The notes under the pieces are model-generated. The model was given only the letters and a program-made list of their open reading frames with translations, was not told the DNA's origin and did no database searches. From assembly GCF_032362555.1 (NCBI RefSeq), contig NC_083532.1, positions 4,043,001 through 4,107,000 of the forward strand: 64,000 nucleotides of DNA. The letters are read 5' to 3'. This stretch comes from Amyelois transitella (lineage: Eukaryota > Arthropoda > Insecta > Lepidoptera > Pyralidae). Below, piece after piece: positions 9,601-59,662 of this stretch (its first letter is position 1; every line of letters begins with the position of its first letter). Position numbers and translations under genes: made by a program.

Positions 9601-12600
9601 ATATACACATAAGCACGTATTTATTCCTTACAGGGTAGACAGAGCCAATAGTCTCGCAAAGACTGAAAGGCCACGTTCAACTATGGTTTAATGACGATTT
9701 TAAGATTCAAATAGTGTCTTACAAGACAAAACCTGTGATCCAAACGCAAGATTCAGAAAACTTTTCACGAAATATTTGTAAAATGAAATGTAACCGATAT
9801 TCGAATTTTTTAACCGATTCGAAATATCACCATACATACATAATAATCATGCAGATAATTCATATTTCTACTTGCCTCGACTTGCATACCACTTGCCTCG
9901 AATTGCATACCTCTTTCGCTTCATCCACGTTCTTTTCATTCTCTTTGTTTTAGGGTACTCTTGAACTGACCTTTAGATAGAATCTTCTTACGAAGTCGAA
10001 GTAGCCAATACTTCCTTAAAGAGGACCTGGCAAACAAATTGTCTTCCCACTGTCGCCTGTCGCATTCAACACGCTGAATAGCAACCGCCCATTTTGTAAA
10101 TTGCCAGCTATATATAGATTGTATGGACAGTTTCCGAGCCTCGGATCCTGTTAGAAGCGGTTTTTCATGCCGGTGTCATCACACTGCAGCATAGATTGAC
10201 GTAATGCACCGCCTCGTATAATAATGACAAATGGATCTGGTAATATTTGGTACGTTGCCGACGAGACAATTAAATTAATGAAGATGATCTGATTCATGTG
10301 ATAGTTATTAATTAGCTTTTTAATGCTATCTGGGCGATTCCAGTTTCTTTATCAATACTATATTTGCAGATTCGTTAGGCATTAAGGTTTCGCTTCTTCT
10401 CCTTTGTCTACACTGGTATTGGTATTCAAAAACCACTTCATTTGGATTCGGGAAAAATATCGAAAGACAATAAAAATAAGTATTAAGTTCGCAATAATAT
10501 TATAGCAAAATTAAAGATTTCATTATCGACGGTATGAAGAAAACCGGGTTGGGCTTGCATGGTTTTTATGTGGTTGATGCGAAAGAAGTAGTCTGCCTAC
10601 TACTCTGGGCAAGTCTCTCTTCCTTTGTATTTACGGTATAGTTGAAAGATTGTCAAAAGTAATAACTTAAAGCATCGTTTTCATATTTCTCGTTGAGCTG
10701 TGCATCAACTTGATTTGCGGGGGCATTGACATAGCACCGGTTTCTCTGTTATGCTGACTGGTCTAGATAAACTGTAGAAACACTGATATTACAAGGAGTA
10801 TAATCTAAAAGTATTGTGTGAAGGATATATACTGTGCCTCTTTATATTAGTGCTACAATGGATTTTTGTTTTAAAGAAACAAAAAGAAAAAGAAATGAAT
10901 AAGTCTTCATTTCGTATTGTGTCAAGTTACTTATTTAATTTCGAGATATTGGACTCTAAACTAATCGCAATATCGATCGCTTAATTAAAGCATTTTGTAG
11001 CTGGGGCACAAAATTACCGTAATTGGTATTTTACTAAAAAAAATACGTTATTGAGGTTCGGTTTATAGATATTTATTGACTCATAAAGAATACAATAATT
11101 CACTTATAATGAGTCTAAAACTAATTTATAAATAATTCGTAAAAATATTGACGCAAATAAACAATGTAGTTTTCGAAAAAGTTATGTAATTTACAAAATT
11201 TTGGTGTAGAAATAATTTTTAAGTCTTCCTTTAAACAAAGTCAAAGATTTTATGTTTTTTAAGTCCTTAGGTAAGTCATTAAACATTTTTGCTCCTTCAT
11301 ATAATATATCACTCTTTCCATATTTAGTTCTAGGTGTGGGTAATTTTATTTTATTTGTATTTCTTAAATGGTGTTTATATTTATTTATCGTAAAAGTTAT
11401 TTTTGTTTGAATTTTCTTTTCAAGAATTTTTTTTACAAGAATGCACATTTTATATTTATATAGTTGATTTAAATTGAAAATTTTGGTTTTTTTATAAAGA
11501 GTTACAGTATTCATTAAATAGTTAAAATTAAATAGTGTTTTTATTACCTTATTTTGGGACCTCTGGATCAAATTCATATTTGTCTTATTTGCACTACCCC
11601 ATATTTCAATTAGATATTCGAGGTGGGACCTTACTAAAGAATTATATAACATGTACTTAACCTTAAATGGGATGCAAGAACCAACTCTCCGCAAAACGCC
11701 ACGCAAAGAAACTAGCTTTCCTCTAAGATGTTCGATATGAGGTATCCAGGTGAGTTTATCATCAAGATGAAGTCCTAGATACTTTTCTTCGTTAGAGCGA
11801 TGTAATTCTTCGCTATTTATAGTAAGACACGGGTAATGCGGTATTTTTTTATTTTTTGCAGCAAATATCATGTAGTTAGTCTTTTTTGTATTTATGGTTA
11901 ATAAATTACATTGGCACCAATCGTGAAATTTGTCGAGGTCTGTTTGTGCTGTATGAATTAGCTCCAAAAAATCAAGTCCGAAATAAAATAAACATGTGTC
12001 GTCTGCATATAGAGTTATATCGCCTGTAAGCCTGATTGTAGTGATATTATTAATATATATTAAGAATAAAAGGGGTCCCAAAATAGATCCTTGTGGAATT
12101 CCACAAGTAATACTTTGTGGTTTACTCTGTGGTTATTAACCGTACCTACTGAAAACAACTTTTCAAGATAGAGTTTTTACTTTATAGAGTTGTTTCAAGT
12201 GAGAAATTAAATTGATTTCACTGAAAAGAAAACAGATGACGGCAATAAGATAAAGTAGGAGTCTGTTATTGTACAATATGCACACCCTTACAAATTATGC
12301 TAGCAAATACTTTGAACATCACTTGCGTTAGCAGTTGATGTTTTGTTTTCTACCGGTGTGACAATCGTAATGAGGCACCCAATTTAACTGCCTCGTTTTA
12401 GTTGTGGCCGCATCTGGCTTAAACTGAATATATTCTCCTTCATTGACACTTTTCTGCAACACAAGTCATGCGTCTAATTTATTTAGCTAACTAGCTGCGC
12501 CCCGGTACTTCGCTCTCGAGGGAATACCGGGATAAAAAGTACCCTATATGTTATTACATTTTATTCTGCCCGTGTACTAAATTTTTATCAAAATTAGTTC

Positions 12601-25913: not shown

Positions 25914-26012
25914 TACATACATAAAATCACGCCTTTTTCCCGGAGGGGTAGGCAGACTACATCTTTCCACATGTCACGATCTTTGCATATTTTAGATTTA
26001 TCCACATTCATA
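25914..26012 (-). repeat. LINE reverse-transcriptase tail fragment, reverse
   Basis: AAAATCACGCCTTTTTCCCGG and CACATGTCACGATCTTTGCA blocks. Confidence 0.6.
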
Positions 26013-26176
26013 ACTTGACGATATTGTCTTAGTAAGAAAGTACAGGTGCGATACAAAGTGCAATAAAGTTTTTAATAAAATACTTACATTTATCTAATCA
26101 ATCATGGCTAACGCAAATTATTTTTACCTGATGATAGTATAGGTAATATAGATGAAGGTAATGGTTTAACTATGTC

Positions 26177-26190
26177 ATCAAAGAAACAAA
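26177..26190 (-). promoter_or_regulatory. putative histone downstream element (H2B)
   Basis: TTTGTTTCTTTGAT on the minus strand begins seven bases after the stem-loop. The H3 gene has TTTGTTTCTTGAT at nearly the same spacing (27519-27531), which suggests a shared 3'-processing element. It is not the purine-rich element usual in other animals. Confidence 0.5.
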
Positions 26191-26197
26191 CACCTTC

Positions 26198-26213
26198 AGC
26201 CCTAAAAAGGGCT
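26198..26213 (-). terminator. histone mRNA 3' stem-loop of the H2B variant
   Basis: On the minus strand the sequence is AGCCCT-TTTT-AGGGCT: a perfect 6-bp stem with a 4-base loop, 45 bases after the stop codon. This is the size, loop length and position of the SLBP-bound processing hairpin of replication-dependent histone mRNAs. Confidence 0.88.
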
Positions 26214-26258
26214 ACGTCATGAAACCCGCCGCACTGAAACGGAGAATTATATTCGTAA

Positions 26259-26654
26259 TTACGTTTGAGCAGGCGGTTTTGTCACACTATTGTGGTACAG
26301 TGTGACAGCCTTCAGCGCTTCCATGTTGGCGTGTTTGGCGAGCTCCCCCGGCAATAACAGTTTCACAGCAGACTGTATCTCCCGGCTCCCCATGGTCGTC
26401 TTCTTGCCGTGCGCCACCAGCCTCCCCGCCTCCACAGCGAACCGCTCCAGCAGGTCGTTCACCGCGTTATTCATTATCAACATAGATTTCCTCGATATCC
26501 TTATGTTTTCTGGAGCGACGCTACGCAGCAACTTGTAAATGTATATGTCGAAACTGTCGTAATTCTTTTTCTTCTTCTTCATTTTCTTGGATATAGGCTT
26601 CTCCAAGGGTTTTGCTATTGGTTTTAAAACTTTCGGAGGTTTTGAAGGCGCCAT
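26259..26654 (-). CDS. divergent histone H2B variant
   Basis: An intronless 131-aa protein with the H2B histone fold: α1 YDSFDIYIYKLL, α2 MNNAVNDLLERFAVEAGRL, L2-α3 SREIQSAVKLLLPGELAKHA. The N-tail is a lysine-proline repeat (KPP, KPI, KPL, KPI) followed by a KKKKK patch like the basic H2B repression domain. Differences from canonical H2B include one extra residue in loop L1 (VAPENIRIS). In the C-terminal helix AVTKY is AVTLY, so the ubiquitin-acceptor lysine (human K120) is leucine. A ten-residue C-terminal extension ends in KPPAQT. It is transcribed divergently from the H3 variant at 26901 and followed by a histone stem-loop 45 bases after the stop. Family is certain; a specialised germline role is speculation. 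Confidence 0.95.
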   Translation of the reverse strand: MAPSKPPKVLKPIAKPLEKPISKKMKKKKKNYDSFDIYIYKLLRSVAPENIRISRKSMLIMNNAVNDLLERFAVEAGRLVAHGKKTTMGSREIQSAVKLLLPGELAKHANMEALKAVTLYHNSVTKPPAQT

Positions 26655-26900
26655 TTTTTAATTTTTTTTATAGTATCGTATTGGAAACTTTTTGTTTTAA
26701 ATAGATTTCTTATTAGCGAAAACATTAACTGCGTGAACAAGATAATCAGCCAATAGCAAATTAAGAAGGCTCATTCCTTATATTGTGATCTTCCGCAAAA
26801 TTTCTTAATCTACCTTCAAAAATAAATATTAATAAAAAGTGGGGTTAGCTAGTTATAAAATCGCCATACAACACGACAAAACGACAGTCTGACAACAAAA
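26655..26900. promoter_or_regulatory. shared divergent H2B/H3 promoter region
   Basis: Only 246 bases separate the two start codons. A TATAAAA box at 26854-26860 lies 41 bases before the H3 ATG, and a CCAAT box is at 26750-26754 near the middle. No convincing TATA box for the H2B direction was found at a suitable distance. Confidence 0.65.
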
Positions 26901-27323
26901 ATGGCGCGAACCAAGCAAACCGCGCGCAAATCAACCGGCGGGAAAGCGCCGAGGAAGCAGCTAGCTATGAAAACCATTAAAGCATGCAGGAAGACCGCCT
27001 CCATGACCTGCGGGGGGGTCAAGAGACCGCACAGGTACCGGCCCGGCACCGTCGCGTTGAGAGAAATCAGGAGATACCAGAAGAGCACTGAGTTATTGAT
27101 GAGAAAATTGCCGTTTCAGAGGTTGGTGAGGGAAATTGCGCTTGAGTTCAAGACTGAGTTGAGAATACAAAGCTCGGCCATGATGGCGCTGCAGGAAGCC
27201 TGCGAGTCTTATTTGGTGGGCCTGTTTGAGGACACCAACCTGTGCGCGGTACATGCCAAGAGAGTTACCATCATGCCGAAAGATATTCAGCTGGCGAGAA
27301 GGATAAGAGGCGACCGCTGTTAG
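26901..27323 (+). CDS. divergent histone H3 variant with altered tail
   Basis: An intronless 140-aa H3. The first 21 tail residues are canonical ([20 protein letters not shown], keeping K4, K9, K14, K18), and the core keeps [19 protein letters not shown] and the αN/α3 helices. The tail between K23 and GGVK is [20 protein letters not shown], four residues longer than canonical. The RK pair equivalent to R26-K27 survives, but S28 becomes T and the surroundings are new. Extra cysteines lie at mature positions 28, 36 and the last residue (RGDRC). Core changes include QDF to LEF, LRF to LRI, and SAVM to SAMM. Loop 1 has no insertion, so it is not a CENP-A type. A TATA box, a short leader and a histone stem-loop 172 bases downstream suggest a functional gene. 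Confidence 0.95.
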
Positions 27324-27494
27324 AAGTTACCTTAGTTTATTATCTACATTAACTTTTTTTTATCTTCGCGTAAAACCTAATGCACCCTCAGCCGTTGCGC
27401 TTAGGCGTAGGGTTTGGGTTTGAAGATTTTGTATATAGTTAAAATCTGTTTATACAAAGTTACCATTTTGTTGTTGTTTGTTGAAATATGACAA

Positions 27495-27510
27495 AGTCCT
27501 TTTCAGGACT
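27495..27510 (+). terminator. histone mRNA 3' stem-loop of the H3 variant
   Basis: AGTCCT-TTTC-AGGACT: perfect 6-bp stem with the canonical UUUC loop, preceded by CAAA and followed by GCAA. It is 172 bases after the stop codon, rather far compared with typical histone genes. Confidence 0.9.
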
Positions 27511-27518
27511 GCAATTTT

Positions 27519-27531
27519 TTTGTTTCTTGAT
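27519..27531 (+). promoter_or_regulatory. putative histone downstream element (H3)
   Basis: TTTGTTTCTTGAT starts eight bases after the stem-loop and matches the H2B downstream motif (26177-26190, minus) with one indel. Confidence 0.5.
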
Positions 27532-27699
27532 ATCACAGTCTAACATTTTTGAAAAATGAAACCGTGTCAGACAAGAATTTTGCTTAATTTTATAATTGGT
27601 GAAATGAAATTAAGTTACGGAAGCATTTGCTAATAAAAAAATATGGGAAGCCATTAAATGGAGCCCCGAAACAAACTAATTTTAAATAATCATCAAAAC

Positions 27700-27705
27700 T
27701 TTATT
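27700..27705 (-). terminator. poly(A) signal candidate of the H2A variant
   Basis: AATAAA on the minus strand about 125 bases after the H2A stop. No 6-bp stem/4-base loop histone hairpin is seen between stop and signal, so the mRNA is probably polyadenylated, unlike the H2B and H3 neighbours. Confidence 0.55.
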
Positions 27706-27830
27706 ATCATAATACAATTTAATTATAAATAAAAAAAATACATGTTTATAATTTACATTATTCATCCACAATCGGCTCCGGGCCAAATAATAACAAAATA
27801 AATCAAAATTCACAATTAATAATATTCCGA

Positions 27831-28196
27831 TCAAACAGTTATAGTCTTTTTCAAGGTTTTCTTCGGTAGCAACTGGGGTTGAATACCTGGCAACACTCCA
27901 GCTTGAGATATGATAACCCCAGTCAACATTTTGTTCAATTCATCATCGTTTCTGATCGCAAATAAAATATGTCGGGGTACAATTCTAGTTTTTTTATTTT
28001 CCTTGGCCGCATCTCCAGCTAATTCTAAGATTTCTGCTGCAAGGTACTCCAGTACAGCTGCAAGATATACGGGAGTGTCTCGTCCTATTCTTGGCGCGAA
28101 ATTCCCTTTTCTCAATATCTTGTCGATTCTTCCCACGGGAAATTTCAGACCAGCTCGCGATGATCTAGTCCCCTTCGCTTTCGTTATTGTCGACAT
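27831..28196 (-). CDS. divergent histone H2A variant
   Basis: An intronless 121-aa H2[21 protein letters not shown], then [40 protein letters not shown] and a KTLKKTITV end. The acidic patch is kept (E of LEYL, the EILE glutamates, DDE), as is the PKK lysine pair near the C-terminus. Differences from canonical H2A are a short [12 protein letters not shown] tail without SGRGKGGK, loop 1 IGRDTPVY in place of VGAGAPVY, HILFAI for HLQLAI, and no SQ/E-Y motif, so it is not H2A.X or H2A.Z. A TATA-like TTTATATT (minus, 28230-28237) lies about 35 bases upstream of the ATG. No histone stem-loop was found downstream; an AATAAA occurs instead. Confidence 0.95.
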
Positions 28197-28819
28197 TGTG
28201 ACGTTAAATTATGTGATCTGTGATTGCAATAATATAAACGTATGGTTTTTGTAATGAACCGCAGTCTGAAGTAGTAACTGCGTTGATGTGTGATAGAGAA
28301 ATGGAGGGGGTAGTTAGTTGGATTAATTCAGATGTGTAATTAGTAGGTACTGTACGATTAAAAAAAATGGTTTGTGTGACATGATGATATATTATAGTTT
28401 GGACTTAAGAATGGAAATTAGTATACTTAATTTTTGTTTCCACATTTTTGATGAGAAGCAATTGCAATTAGCTGTTTGTTTTTCATTATTTATTCACATA
28501 CATTCCACACATTCATGGGATAAGTCCGCCATTGCAAGTTTCTTTTATAACTATGTACTATTGTTACTGTGAAAATTTCTATGCAATAAAGATATTAATA
28601 CATAGTTACACACATTTTTTTTTGTTGTCAAACCAGCACACAAACTTGCACTAGATGAATGTGCTTATTCCTTTAGTCGCTTTGTTTCATAATTTTATCC
28701 ATCATCTAGGTACACCGAGGCCTTCGACACCGAGAGAATTGCGATTGTAGGCTACAAAACCGATTCATTTTTATTTCATGGTACTATTGACCCTGACTAT
28801 ACCTTAACGTATGAAGACG

Positions 28820-31375: not shown

Positions 31376-31625
31376 AAATTCCGACCGTTACGACGATAAG
31401 ACGTGCTAATAATAATTATTAAAAAAAACTAAGTGTAAGATAAGATAAAGTTTAGTGGCATACCTGTGTAAATAAGACAACAAGAATTTGATAGTGATCG
31501 TGCATAGTAAGTTAGTGTTTAGTGTAGAACATTCTAGAATTCTAAGAATACGCAATGACCTGATCGGTCACGGGTTAAGGAACACCCTCTTTACTCAAGA
31601 CAGTGGGGAAATTATACGCTTAAAC

Positions 31626-32758
31626 ATGGATTCTCCGAAGATTGTCTACAAATATTATTCTAACCCAGCATTTTGCGCTCAAAGTGAAGTCATTTTCGCT
31701 CAAAAACAATGCATGACCAAGATTGTAGCACCCAACCGACGAATGTCACCTTTAGGGGGCAACTCTCCAAGAAAACATGTTGAAACACGAATCATGAGGA
31801 CCGATATCTCAGATAATCCTCTAAGGATGTCTCCAGCTGGAGCAAGACGCGATGAACCACCGGAATTACCACCAAAACCGGCCAAATTTCAAGCCAGAAA
31901 CTTCCAAAGACAATCATCTTTAGTGTACAAACCTACAAGAACAGTGAGATGTCGAACTAGAAGCGAAGATCTTGAAATGGCCCAGTTAAAACAAGAGAGG
32001 AGATCAAAATACGACAGAAATGCCGAAAGCGATGATGGACTAGAAGATAGTAGATATAAACATAGATACGAAGTCATTAAGGATGATATATATGAAGGCA
32101 TGGATTATTCCCCAACGAAGAAAAGGATAATAGAAGCTGATGCTGCAGACATTGAGGAATATAACGTAGACGGGCCAGATGATAACGAACTGAAAGAAAT
32201 TCCAACGGAAATTGTCAAAACAGTGAATGGTAAGACTCACAGATACGCCATAGTGCCTTCGGACGACGACGAACCGGTACCAGAGCCCGTACGACGGAAC
32301 AATGTGACATTTTCGTCTCCAATGATGTCCACGAAGAATTTAATAGCGACACAGAAGTTACACGAACTTTTGTCCACGCCCAGGAAGTTAAAAAGCTACG
32401 CAAGCCAACCATCAGTGCATGTGACCCCAAATAAATCTTCGCTTAGTCCAAACAGATACAATTCGAATACTCCTAATAAAATTTTGTCCAGTACACCAAC
32501 AAAAGGTGTGACTCCGTCTAAATCTTGTGCTAATCTTACTTCAAGAAGTCTAGTTACTTCGCCAATTTCGCCAAGGGCTCAACAAAAGCTACATTACGGA
32601 TTGCCAGATGAATTTAACAGGACAGATGTTTTTGTAACTAGTTTTAGGGAAAAGAGTCACGATAGGAGTTTAGATTTAGATAGGAGAAATGTGAGTAGAG
32701 ATAGCAGAAGGGTAAAGGAACAGAAGAAGGATAGGACGACTGCTGTGATCACGCCAAG
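31626..32758 (+). CDS. spdo: spdo exon 1: NPAF motif and cytoplasmic domain
   Basis: 1133-base coding exon ending in phase 2 before GTGAGC. It carries nearly all the disordered N-terminal region, including the NPAF motif, the proline-rich PPELPPKP, acidic clusters (PSDDDEPVPEP) and repeated TPNK/SPNR/TPTK motifs. Confidence 0.88.
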
Positions 32759-34844
32759 GTGAGCTGCAGCTAATAAATAAATACATACGGGACAAATTAC
32801 ACTGATTGAGTTATTAGCCTCGAAGTAAGTTCGAGACTTGTGTTACGAGATACTAACTCAACGATACAATATTTTATAATAAATACTTATATAGATAAAC
32901 ATCCAAGACCCAGGCCAATCAGAAAAAGTTCTTTTCTCATCATGCCCTGGCCAGGATTCGAACCCGGGACCACTGGTGTCACAAACAAGCGTACTCCCGC
33001 TGCACCACAGAGGCCGTCAAAATTTATCATACTGCTGAGTATTTTTTCACAGGCGGAATCCGTCAATTTGGAAATTGGTTAACTTAATTAATTGCAATTG
33101 GAGTCCTAATGTGATCTAAGTAAAGCACATTATTAAACGGATTTGAAATATGTTTTCAGAGTGGCTGCGCCCGCGCCTTCCGTCTACTCGGACGACACCT
33201 ACAAATCGTTTTCTTTCGTCAAGACCGGGGGCTCTAGGGCTTCGCTGACCGTCGCCGCCATGATGCTGACCCTCAGTGGAGGCCTAACCACTGGCCTTAG
33301 CTTCTTTATGATGTATGCTGTAAGTATAATATACAATCACATCTATATATCCCTTGCGGGTTAAAAAGAGTCAATAGTCTCGAAAATACTGATAGACCAC
33401 GTTCAGCTGTGGTTTAGTGATAGAATTTTAATTCAATTGTTAAACTAGTTGAGCGCGGTCGTCGTAGTCTTGTGGGGTAGACAGAGCCAACAGTCTAAAA
33501 GACCGATAGGCCACGTTCAGCTGTTCGGCTGTTTATTTATAGTTTTAAACATTAACGGTTAGAATTGTTGAATAGACCATTTATCGAGGAAGGCTTTAGA
33601 CTATATAACATCACGCTGCAACTTTTAGGAGCGAAGAAATAATGGAAAATGTGAAAAATAAAACGGGGGAAGTTATTCATCTTTGAGGGCTTCAATGATG
33701 CTCAAAATAACTATTCCACGCGGACGAAGTCGCGGACGCAGCTAGTATATAATAGTCATGTGTTTTTGTTTACAGATGGGTCGCCGTTATTACCTAGACT
33801 TTGGCGTGTTTTCCGGCTTCACTTGCTTTTTGTTGGGGCTGCTAGGTTGCAGGTCGAGGAGGAGGCACCTTCTGCCTAATAGGAATTATATATCAGGTAT
33901 GTCACCGTTATAACAAGTGAAAAAAATTAAGGACGTCCTGGTAAAGGGTCAGGTCAAAAGTACCCGAAACCGCCGAGCTTGCATGAAGAGAATTATGAAT
34001 GTGGATGAAGCGAAGGAAGTATGCAAAGATCGTGGCAAGTGGAAAGAGGTAGTCTCTGCCTACTCCTTCGGGAAAGAGGCGTGATTTTATGTATGTATAA
34101 AAAGTGCAATGCATACACATAAATCTAAGATGAAATCGGGTAAATATTATAAGTAAGTATTTTTTTTTCTTTAACATAACCACACAACACCCGCATTTTA
34201 AAACCACATAAGTTCTTACAGAAAGCTATTGATGTAACTAAAATGCGGGCTTCTAATATTACGATCTAGTTGAAGAAATATTTCTTTTGGGCTTTTCAAA
34301 TGCGAGTCAAATTCAAAGGAGATAATTTATTTTAGTGTGGCGCGTGGGCCCATCGCAATACTTTGGACAGGGTTGCCAACTCCCACCTAAGACTTGTAGC
34401 TAGACATATAACAGAAAGTTGCTAGATTGGGTATTGTTTTTTCAACCTAAAGTGTTGCTAGTAAAAGTAGCTAAAAAGTTTTGCTCAAGTTTTTAAATGA
34501 TGTAGCTGCCTGACTTCAAAAAGTTGTCCACTATTTAATGATTTACGAATTTTGTTGTTGTCAAGTTGGCAGCACTGACTGACACTGATTGTTTTATCTT
34601 AAACATATTTCCTTTTCCAGGGTACATAGTCCTCTCATCGTTCTCGCTGCTCAGCGCGGGCGGGCTCATCATGCTGTTGACACTGGACCCGAAGCCTGGC
34701 ACCCCGCTCAGTGACATCACGTCGGGAGCCGTCTGCGGAGTAAGCGTGCTCTCATTAGCTCTGGCAGCGCTTGGAGTCTTCGCCTCTTACTGCTGTGCCA
34801 GAGACCCGCCCGATAATAGAGTCGGCAGTGCTACGTGGTATTGA
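31626..34844 (+). CDS. spdo: Sanpodo-like four-pass membrane protein (Notch pathway)
   Basis: Four exons (31626-32758, 33160-33319, 33776-33896, 34621-34844) splice in phase to 545 aa. A long polar N-terminal cytoplasmic region (about 1-400) begins with YYSNPAF; NPAF (residues 13-16) is the Numb-interaction motif described for Drosophila Sanpodo. A PPELPPKPAK stretch could bind SH3 domains, and there are many SP/TP sites. Four hydrophobic segments follow at roughly 405-431, 436-456, 473-493 and 509-531, then a short tail. Sanpodo promotes Notch signalling during asymmetric division and is removed from the membrane by Numb. Length (Drosophila about 565 aa), topology and motif position all fit. 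The start is ATG 31626, the first in-frame ATG after a two-codon upstream ORF (31555-31563). The orthology call rests on architecture and motif. Confidence 0.8.
32775..33020 (-). repeat. tRNA-derived SINE (type A), reverse, in spdo intron 1
   Basis: GGATTCGAACCCGGGACC (B-box complement) and CTGCACCACAGAGGCCGTC (A-box complement) with the full body upstream. Confidence 0.82.
33160..33319 (+). CDS. spdo: spdo exon 2: first membrane segment
   Basis: 160 bases after TTTTCAG, donor GTAAGT. It encodes SVYSDDTYKSFSFVKTGG, then the hydrophobic ASLTVAAMMLTLSGGLTTGL. Confidence 0.88.
33335..33530 (-). repeat. two S265 tail fragments, reverse
   Basis: 33335-33440 and 33470-33530 each hold a GACAGAGCCAACAG-like block and GGCCACGTTCAGCTGT. 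Confidence 0.6.
33560..33750 (-). repeat. RTE-like LINE 3' end, reverse
   Basis: ATCACGCTGCAACTTTTAGG to CCACGCGGACGAAGTCGCGG and AGCTAGTA. Confidence 0.7.
33776..33896 (+). CDS. spdo: spdo exon 3: second membrane segment
   Basis: 121 bases after GTTTACAG, donor GTATGT. It encodes MGRRYYLDFGVFSGFTCFLL and a basic CRSRRRH turn. Confidence 0.87.
33925..34105 (+). repeat. LINE reverse-transcriptase tail fragment in spdo intron 3
   Basis: Near-identical to 17632-17815, starting at AATTAAGGACGTCCTGGTAA. Confidence 0.7.
34621..34844 (+). CDS. spdo: spdo exon 4: membrane segments 3-4 and C-terminus
   Basis: 224 bases after TTTTCCAG, ending in TGA 34842-34844. It encodes YIVLSSFSLLSAGGLIMLLT and AVCGVSVLSLALAALGVFAS, with a short RDPPDN tail. 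Confidence 0.88.
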
Positions 34845-58274: not shown

Positions 58275-58450
58275 ATCGATCTGAGGAAAGATTTGGGATT
58301 CTTCTTGTAGGCGATGGTCTAGCAACCTGTCACTTTTTTTAATGTCAATTCTATCGTCAAGATAAACAGCTGAACGTGGCATATCAGTCTTTTCCAAGAC
58401 TGTTGGCTTTGTCTACCCCGCAAGTGATAAAGACGTGATTATATGAATAA
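58275..58450 (+). repeat. S265 repeat, forward, 3' part
   Basis: GATTTGGGATTCTTCTTGTA to GACGTGATTATATGAATAAAT. Confidence 0.72.
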
Positions 58451-58963: not shown

Positions 58964-59662
58964 ATGTCGGACGACTCTGATATTGATATTCAGTCAGCTT
59001 TACCAAAGAATAGTAAAAAAATGCCAAAACAGCCTACAAGTCCTTCCGAAGAGCACCTGAATCCAGACACCAAGAAAATAAGCACAAAAATTATGATTTA
59101 CGAAGCACTAAACGAATTAAAAAGTAGAAAAGGCACCTCTTTGTACGCCATCAAGAAGTTCATTGTGGAAAAACACCAAGTTGACATCGACAAAATAAAT
59201 TACATTATAAAGAAAGTGATTGTGAAAGGAGTAAATGCGGGCACTATAGTGCAAATGAAAGGAGTTGGCGCGTCGGGCTCATTCAAACTGGCACCCGAAA
59301 AAAAGCCAGAAATAAAGAAACCCAAGCCTAAGAAACCGGAGAAGACGAAGAAAGAACCGAAAGATAAAGATAAAAGGCTAAATAAAACAGAACAAAAGAA
59401 AAACAAAGACAAATCTGAAAAAGTGGAAAAAAATAAAACAAAAACAGTTAAATTACCCGCGACGAATACATCTAAAACTAAAACAAAGGAGCCAAAAGAA
59501 AAGGCGCCAAAAGAGAAAAAAGACAAATCTGCCATAGACAAAGTTAAGAAAATGACCAAAGGGAAAATGACACCCGCCAAAAAACGCGCAATCATGATGA
59601 AAAGAAAAAGTATTGGGTCAATTATAAAGCCGCCCAAAATGAAGCCGAGAGCCCAGAGCTAA
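58964..59662 (+). CDS. divergent linker histone H1
   Basis: An intronless 232-aa protein: an acidic-polar N-tail (MSDDSDIDIQSALPKN), then a winged-helix H1/H5 globular domain from about residue 40 to 112 (ALNELKSRKGTSLYAIKKFI, IIKKVIVKGVNAGTIVQMKG, GVGASGSFKL). A C-tail of about 115 residues is dominated by Lys with PKEK/KKPK motifs. H1 binds linker DNA at the nucleosome dyad. The globular motifs GTSLYAIKKFI and GASGSFKL are classical. The N-tail is unusual, and S/TPKK motifs are scarce (one TPAKK). No histone stem-loop was seen after the stop; AATAAA-type signals occur within about 90 bases, so it is probably polyadenylated. It may partner the divergent core histones 31 kb upstream, but that is inference. 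Confidence 0.93.
   Translation: MSDDSDIDIQSALPKNSKKMPKQPTSPSEEHLNPDTKKISTKIMIYEALNELKSRKGTSLYAIKKFIVEKHQVDIDKINYIIKKVIVKGVNAGTIVQMKGVGASGSFKLAPEKKPEIKKPKPKKPEKTKKEPKDKDKRLNKTEQKKNKDKSEKVEKNKTKTVKLPATNTSKTKTKEPKEKAPKEKKDKSAIDKVKKMTKGKMTPAKKRAIMMKRKSIGSIIKPPKMKPRAQS

Follow-up and report, generated by a model that had tools for sequence, protein, structure and literature searches.

Linked, diverged H2B, H3 and H2A genes with intact frames as a candidate cell-type-specific histone set

Three intact, intronless genes encoding diverged forms of H2B, H3 and H2A were found within 2 kb of the analysed stretch of DNA (64 kb; hereafter the window). Core histones barely change, and the linked, altered trio therefore suggests that one cell type has chromatin of its own. 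The reading proposed here, to which the analysis gives an even chance, is that of a functional, diverged histone set serving one cell type, likeliest the germ line and more likely the male germ line, together with ordinary H4. The cluster is laid out as follows:

26259..26654, minus strand: H2B variant gene, 131 amino acid residues, intronless, intact frame
26655..26900, no strand: spacer separating the start codons of H2B and H3, 246 bp, genes head-to-head
26901..27323, plus strand: H3 variant gene, 140 amino acid residues, intronless, intact frame
27831..28196, minus strand: H2A variant gene, 121 amino acid residues, intronless, intact frame

The three intact intronless histone frames in 2 kb, claimed in the original prediction, were confirmed at these positions. 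The Pfam Histone domain matched H2B (E 1.2e-15), H3 (E 2.5e-44) and H2A (E 2.6e-10), a second match of H2A was to Histone_H2A_C (E 1.9e-14), and PDB sequence searches assigned the three proteins as H2B, H3 and H2A. The predicted orientations were also found, as H2B and H3 diverge from the 246-bp spacer and H2A is convergent with H3. The predicted absence of H4 held as well: tblastn with human H4 gave no match in the 64-kb window at E <= 10. The cluster of three single-frame, intronless genes in 2 kb is a trait of replication-dependent histone genes, and the linkage of several variant histones (H2B, H3 and H2A in 2 kb) is a trait of germline variant clusters. Within the spacer, TATAAA (26854-26859, plus strand) lies towards H3 and TATTTAA (26697-26703, minus strand) towards H2B, and these TATA-like boxes stand 47-49 nt ahead of the H3 and H2B starts. 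GC3 was 0.70 for H3, 0.64 for H2B, 0.38 for H2A and 0.41 for an H1 gene described below, with a window GC of 0.37.

Relative to the canonical fly histones, the identity over aligned residues was 62/123 (50%) for H2B, 119/136 (87.5%) for H3 and 80/118 (68%) for H2A, and the near-invariance of a canonical histone protein was thus found in none of them. A strong departure from canonical sequence had been predicted for the whole trio; all three are indeed diverged, but H3 is the least changed, with 82 of its 92 core residues kept. For controls, an H3 scan of prokaryote genome contigs yielded ten loci (L001-L010), all in records titled as prokaryotic MAGs, whose histone genes look like contaminating eukaryotic sequence. 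L001, L002, L003, L004 and L006 were used as alignment controls, and L005 and L007-L010 were excluded from the alignments because they were interrupted or partial. The identity to the control genes on these prokaryotic MAG contigs was 54-58% for H2B (three genes), 85-87% for H3 (five genes) and 68-73% for H2A (three genes). Pattern-based scans recovered no orthologue in either the prokaryote genome contigs or the viral contigs; H2B drew no locus in the former, and none of the three core proteins had a relative in the latter. A viral origin was rejected on the latter result, from scans that were not exhaustive because they started from exact short peptide patterns. As a separate observation, L001, L002 and L004 hold eukaryotic histone genes with stem-loops, and L001 additionally carries U1, U2 and 5S RNA genes, an apparent case of contamination in public genome bins.

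Of the 17 substitutions of H3 relative to fly, K37R and five more at residues 22-31 belong to the tail, ten fall on the 92 core sites and one is at the last residue. Residues 1-21 are identical to fly H3, the changes begin at residue 22, and K27 and K36 are kept. The tail also carries a four-residue insertion relative to fly, which occurs in none of the four controls covering the tail (L006 lacks the tail part). Five cysteines are present, compared with one in fly H3; the substitution F84I is carried, and the motif S87-A88-M89-M90 differs from the fly SAVM only in V89. The H3.3 signature is AAIG at 87-90, and an H3.3 identity was rejected on the SAMM found there. In H2B, AVTK became AVTL, so that leucine replaces the lysine that corresponds to human K120. 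This protein also has a one-residue insertion in loop 1, a Lys-Pro-rich N-terminal tail and a C-terminal extension of seven residues, while PGEL and the glutamate of SEG are kept; the AlphaFold mean pLDDT for H2B alone and with the three control H2Bs (56.0 and 53.5) was too low for use. In H2A, the acidic-patch stretches EYL, AE.LEL and ND.EL are kept with one Glu-to-Asp change, as are the lysines of LLPKKT. The N-terminal tail of H2A is shortened, its SGRGK start being gone, and the GNYAERVGAGAP of canonical loop 1 is replaced by another stretch. The hallmark of H2A.X is a C-terminal SQ motif, and this identity was rejected for a C-terminus without it. In canonical histones, the corresponding positions are sites of ubiquitin, of methylation or of contact with chaperones.

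The 3' ends were analyzed for hairpins and poly(A) signals. At the position expected of a histone 3' stem-loop, H2B and H3 are each followed by a perfect 6-bp stem with a 4-nt loop starting with TT:

26198..26213, minus strand: H2B hairpin AGCCCT-TTTT-AGGGCT, 45 nt past the H2B stop, off-consensus
27495..27510, plus strand: H3 hairpin AGTCCT-TTTC-AGGACT, 171 nt past the H3 stop, off-consensus

A strict scan of the window returned three hairpins, namely these two and one at 58386, upstream of H1; none lies within 250 nt of the H2A or H1 stop. Permitting G-U pairs added one weaker hairpin each for H2A and H1 and another three for H3. In 20,000 first-order resamplings of the four flanks, at least one gene was followed by a hairpin in 149 sets and two genes in none, which puts the observed pair beyond chance. 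Both hairpins are flanked by TGAC upstream and, 7-8 nt downstream, by the pyrimidine-rich TTTGTTTCTT; the 10 shared flank letters were reached in 51 of 20,000 shuffles, likewise first-order resamplings, for flanks that had been noticed first and tested afterwards. This TTTGTTTCTT, just 3' of both hairpins, occupies the position expected of the purine-rich downstream element. The best downstream 9-mer held six purines for H2B and five for H3, and the 11 of 13 control sites tested ranged from 5 to 9. Thirteen control hairpins, from 4 of the 10 loci, were compared: all 13 start with G-C and 11 are followed by ACA or ACC, compared with an A-U start and neither ACA nor ACC for both the H2B and the H3 hairpin. 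The Rfam Histone3 model gave a weak 12.0 bits for the H3 hairpin (E 0.99 in 81 bases), no match for the H2B hairpin and no match at E <= 10 over 26000-28400; 12 control sites in L001, L002 and L004 scored 26.9-38.9 bits, and a thirteenth control match (15.7 bits, E 6.1) was chance-like. The fold stability of the H2B hairpin was matched by 3 of 200 shuffles and that of the H3 hairpin by 22 of 200, which is unremarkable. Within 500 nt past the stop, the first AATAAA was found at 70 nt for H1 (with a second at 83 nt), 126 nt for H2A, 309 nt for H3 and 400 nt for H2B.

A fourth histone gene, absent from the original prediction, lies elsewhere in the window:

58964..59662, plus strand: linker histone H1 gene, 232 amino acid residues, intronless

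Its product matched Pfam Linker_histone (E 2.2e-23), its PDB matches are H1 chains, and its C-terminal tail is lysine-rich and alanine-poor (Ala 6 of 120 residues). Identity between its H1 domain and that of fly is 31 of 70 residues (44%). The protein cannot be called unusual, because the H1-like matches in the control loci reach only 49% (L001) and 45% (L004) against the same fly domain. H1 is possibly a variant and possibly ordinary, and it is a possible member of the set by its proximity, 31 kb from the core cluster.

Other features of the window were also recorded. The repeats look moth-like, and two repeat words had no match in viral contigs. A 428-aa stop-to-stop frame (31476-32762, plus strand), which may be a host-gene exon, had no Pfam match at E <= 0.1, and a reverse transcriptase fragment was found at 11191-12132 on the minus strand (RVT_1, E 7e-11). 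A tRNA-His (gtg) was called at 32943-33014 on the minus strand by ARAGORN and Rfam, and it was the only Rfam match in the window at the gathering threshold.

A specialised set derived from ordinary histone genes is consistent with the intronless genes, the TATA-like boxes, the high GC3 and hairpins of H2B and H3, and the near poly(A) signals of H2A and H1. In the proposed scheme, H2B, H3 and H2A, possibly with the H1 gene 31 kb away, would derive from ordinary replicative histone genes; the H2B and H3 mRNAs would end, at least partly, at the hairpins, and those of H2A and H1 would be polyadenylated. H3 would be loaded at replication, given the SAxM motif of replicative H3, and the variant H2A, H2B and H3 would form a nucleosome of their own type together with ordinary H4. 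Such a nucleosome would be unable to carry H2BK120 ubiquitin and might be less stable, or cross-linked through the cysteines of H3. Where sperm are nucleated, it would precede the change from histones to protamines. A variant nucleosome with ordinary H4, as first proposed from the cluster, is the natural reading because the acidic patch and 82/92 of the H3 core are kept and no H4 was found. H3 and H2A also look constrained in the neutral simulation described below, which was not significant for H2B.

The germ line is put first, and the male before the female, because of the analogy with Oikopleura and Hydractinia only; no sequence feature points to testis specifically. At a clearly lower probability, though still a possibility of some weight, the variant set is functional in the female germ line, the early embryo or an endoreplicating tissue and not in sperm. 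These tissues are inseparable from sequence alone, and Oikopleura has in H2A.3 one divergent, ovary-enriched H2A (PMC3156773, in extract), but both multi-gene variant clusters described in the extracts of PMC3156773 and PMC5011920, just two cases, are male-specific.

A neutral simulation, in which the fly proteins drifted to the observed identity with random synonymous codons and with indels excluded, was performed for the three core proteins. Runs as conservative as the observed changes numbered 21 of 2000 for H3, 0 of 2000 for H2A and 203 of 2000 for H2B, the last not significant. The core remained free of stops in 1002 (H3), 465 (H2A) and 296 (H2B) of 2000 runs, or jointly in about 2%. The H2A changes are concentrated at sites where fly and yeast differ (Fisher P 0.001); the same test was not significant for H3 (0.34) or H2B (0.30). 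These results support constraint on H2A and H3 and weakly suggest it for H2B. They bear directly on the view that the genes are a relict histone cluster drifting to pseudogenes and open by chance. Off-consensus hairpins behind H2B and H3, H2B changes that are not significantly conservative and a window without H4 would all fit such a relict, but intact frames, which for three stop-free cores are rarely kept by chance, conservative changes in H2A and H3, and a GC3 that in H2B and H3 greatly exceeds the window GC make it unlikely.

A chromosome-specific chromatin role had also been raised as conceivable, with reference to the lack of CENP-A in Lepidoptera; a CENP-A substitute found no support. 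CenH3 proteins are recognised by a longer loop 1 and by lacking Gln, Phe and Thr at 69, 85 and 118 (criteria as extracted from PMC4359364). In the alignment with the control H3s, loop 1 of the H3 described here has no insertion, and the diagnostic Gln and Thr are kept, with Phe alone changed, to Ile; a CENP-A substitute was rejected on these published grounds. Holocentromere or kinetochore chromatin standing in for CENP-A is therefore very improbable, since, although five lepidopteran genomes yielded no CenH3 (PMC4359364, in extract) and one of the three diagnostic residues of H3 is altered, its loop 1 is no longer than usual, Gln and Thr are kept and tail residues 1-21 are canonical.

The preferred reading, a functional set with ordinary H4 in one cell type, can be extended to a bolder one, which is regarded as a long shot. 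A holocentric insect lineage without CENP-A would possess a near-complete second chromatin set (H2A, H2B, H3 and perhaps H1, alongside ordinary H4) that serves a single sperm morph or holocentric meiosis. Nucleosomes of this set, unable to carry H2BK120 ubiquitin and cross-linkable through the H3 cysteines, would mark chromatin that anucleate sperm are to remove or that nucleated sperm are to compact.

According to the portions of PMC4359364 drawn on, the holocentric insect genomes examined there, five Lepidoptera included, yielded no functional H3-like protein other than H3 and H3.3. If the window is lepidopteran, the H3 described here would be an exception to that statement, a gene that was missed or a younger gene. 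Among the matches listed, the open-licence PMC literature, as far as its extracts go, describes no comparable variant set in Lepidoptera. If the window is lepidopteran, the set would also provide a genetic means of studying how the DNA of the two sperm types is packaged or discarded. A dedicated H2B without the K120 lysine would be a natural test of the role of that mark in germ cells.

Two insects with H3-derived genes provide one comparison, the pea aphid and L. vibrans, the latter an odonate. In these holocentric insects the genes group with H3 and not with CenH3, and that of the pea aphid is called putatively nonfunctional (extracts of PMC4359364). The germline H2B variants of mammals are similar by description, as diverging germ-line H2Bs, but belong to a mammalian host (PMC8857922, in extract). 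In Hydractinia echinata, male germ-cell H2B variants with measured testis expression are divergent, single-exon, partly clustered and stem-loop-bearing (extracts of PMC5011920). Their N-terminal tails carry SPKK or SPKR, whereas the H2B described here has neither, and no linked variant H3 is reported in the extracted parts of PMC5011920. Oikopleura dioica has histone genes and clusters specific to males (H1t, H2At, H2Bt, H3t and H4t), with measured testis expression (PMC3156773, in extract). That system is likened by description and differs in including a variant H4 and in being that of a chordate. According to the same extracts of PMC3156773, Oikopleura shares with the present set the linkage of divergent variants of several histones; the clustered H3t.1, H3t.2 and H1t have stem-loops, and the orphan H3t.3, with a degenerate one, carries ten histone-fold substitutions, equal to the core count in the H3 described here.
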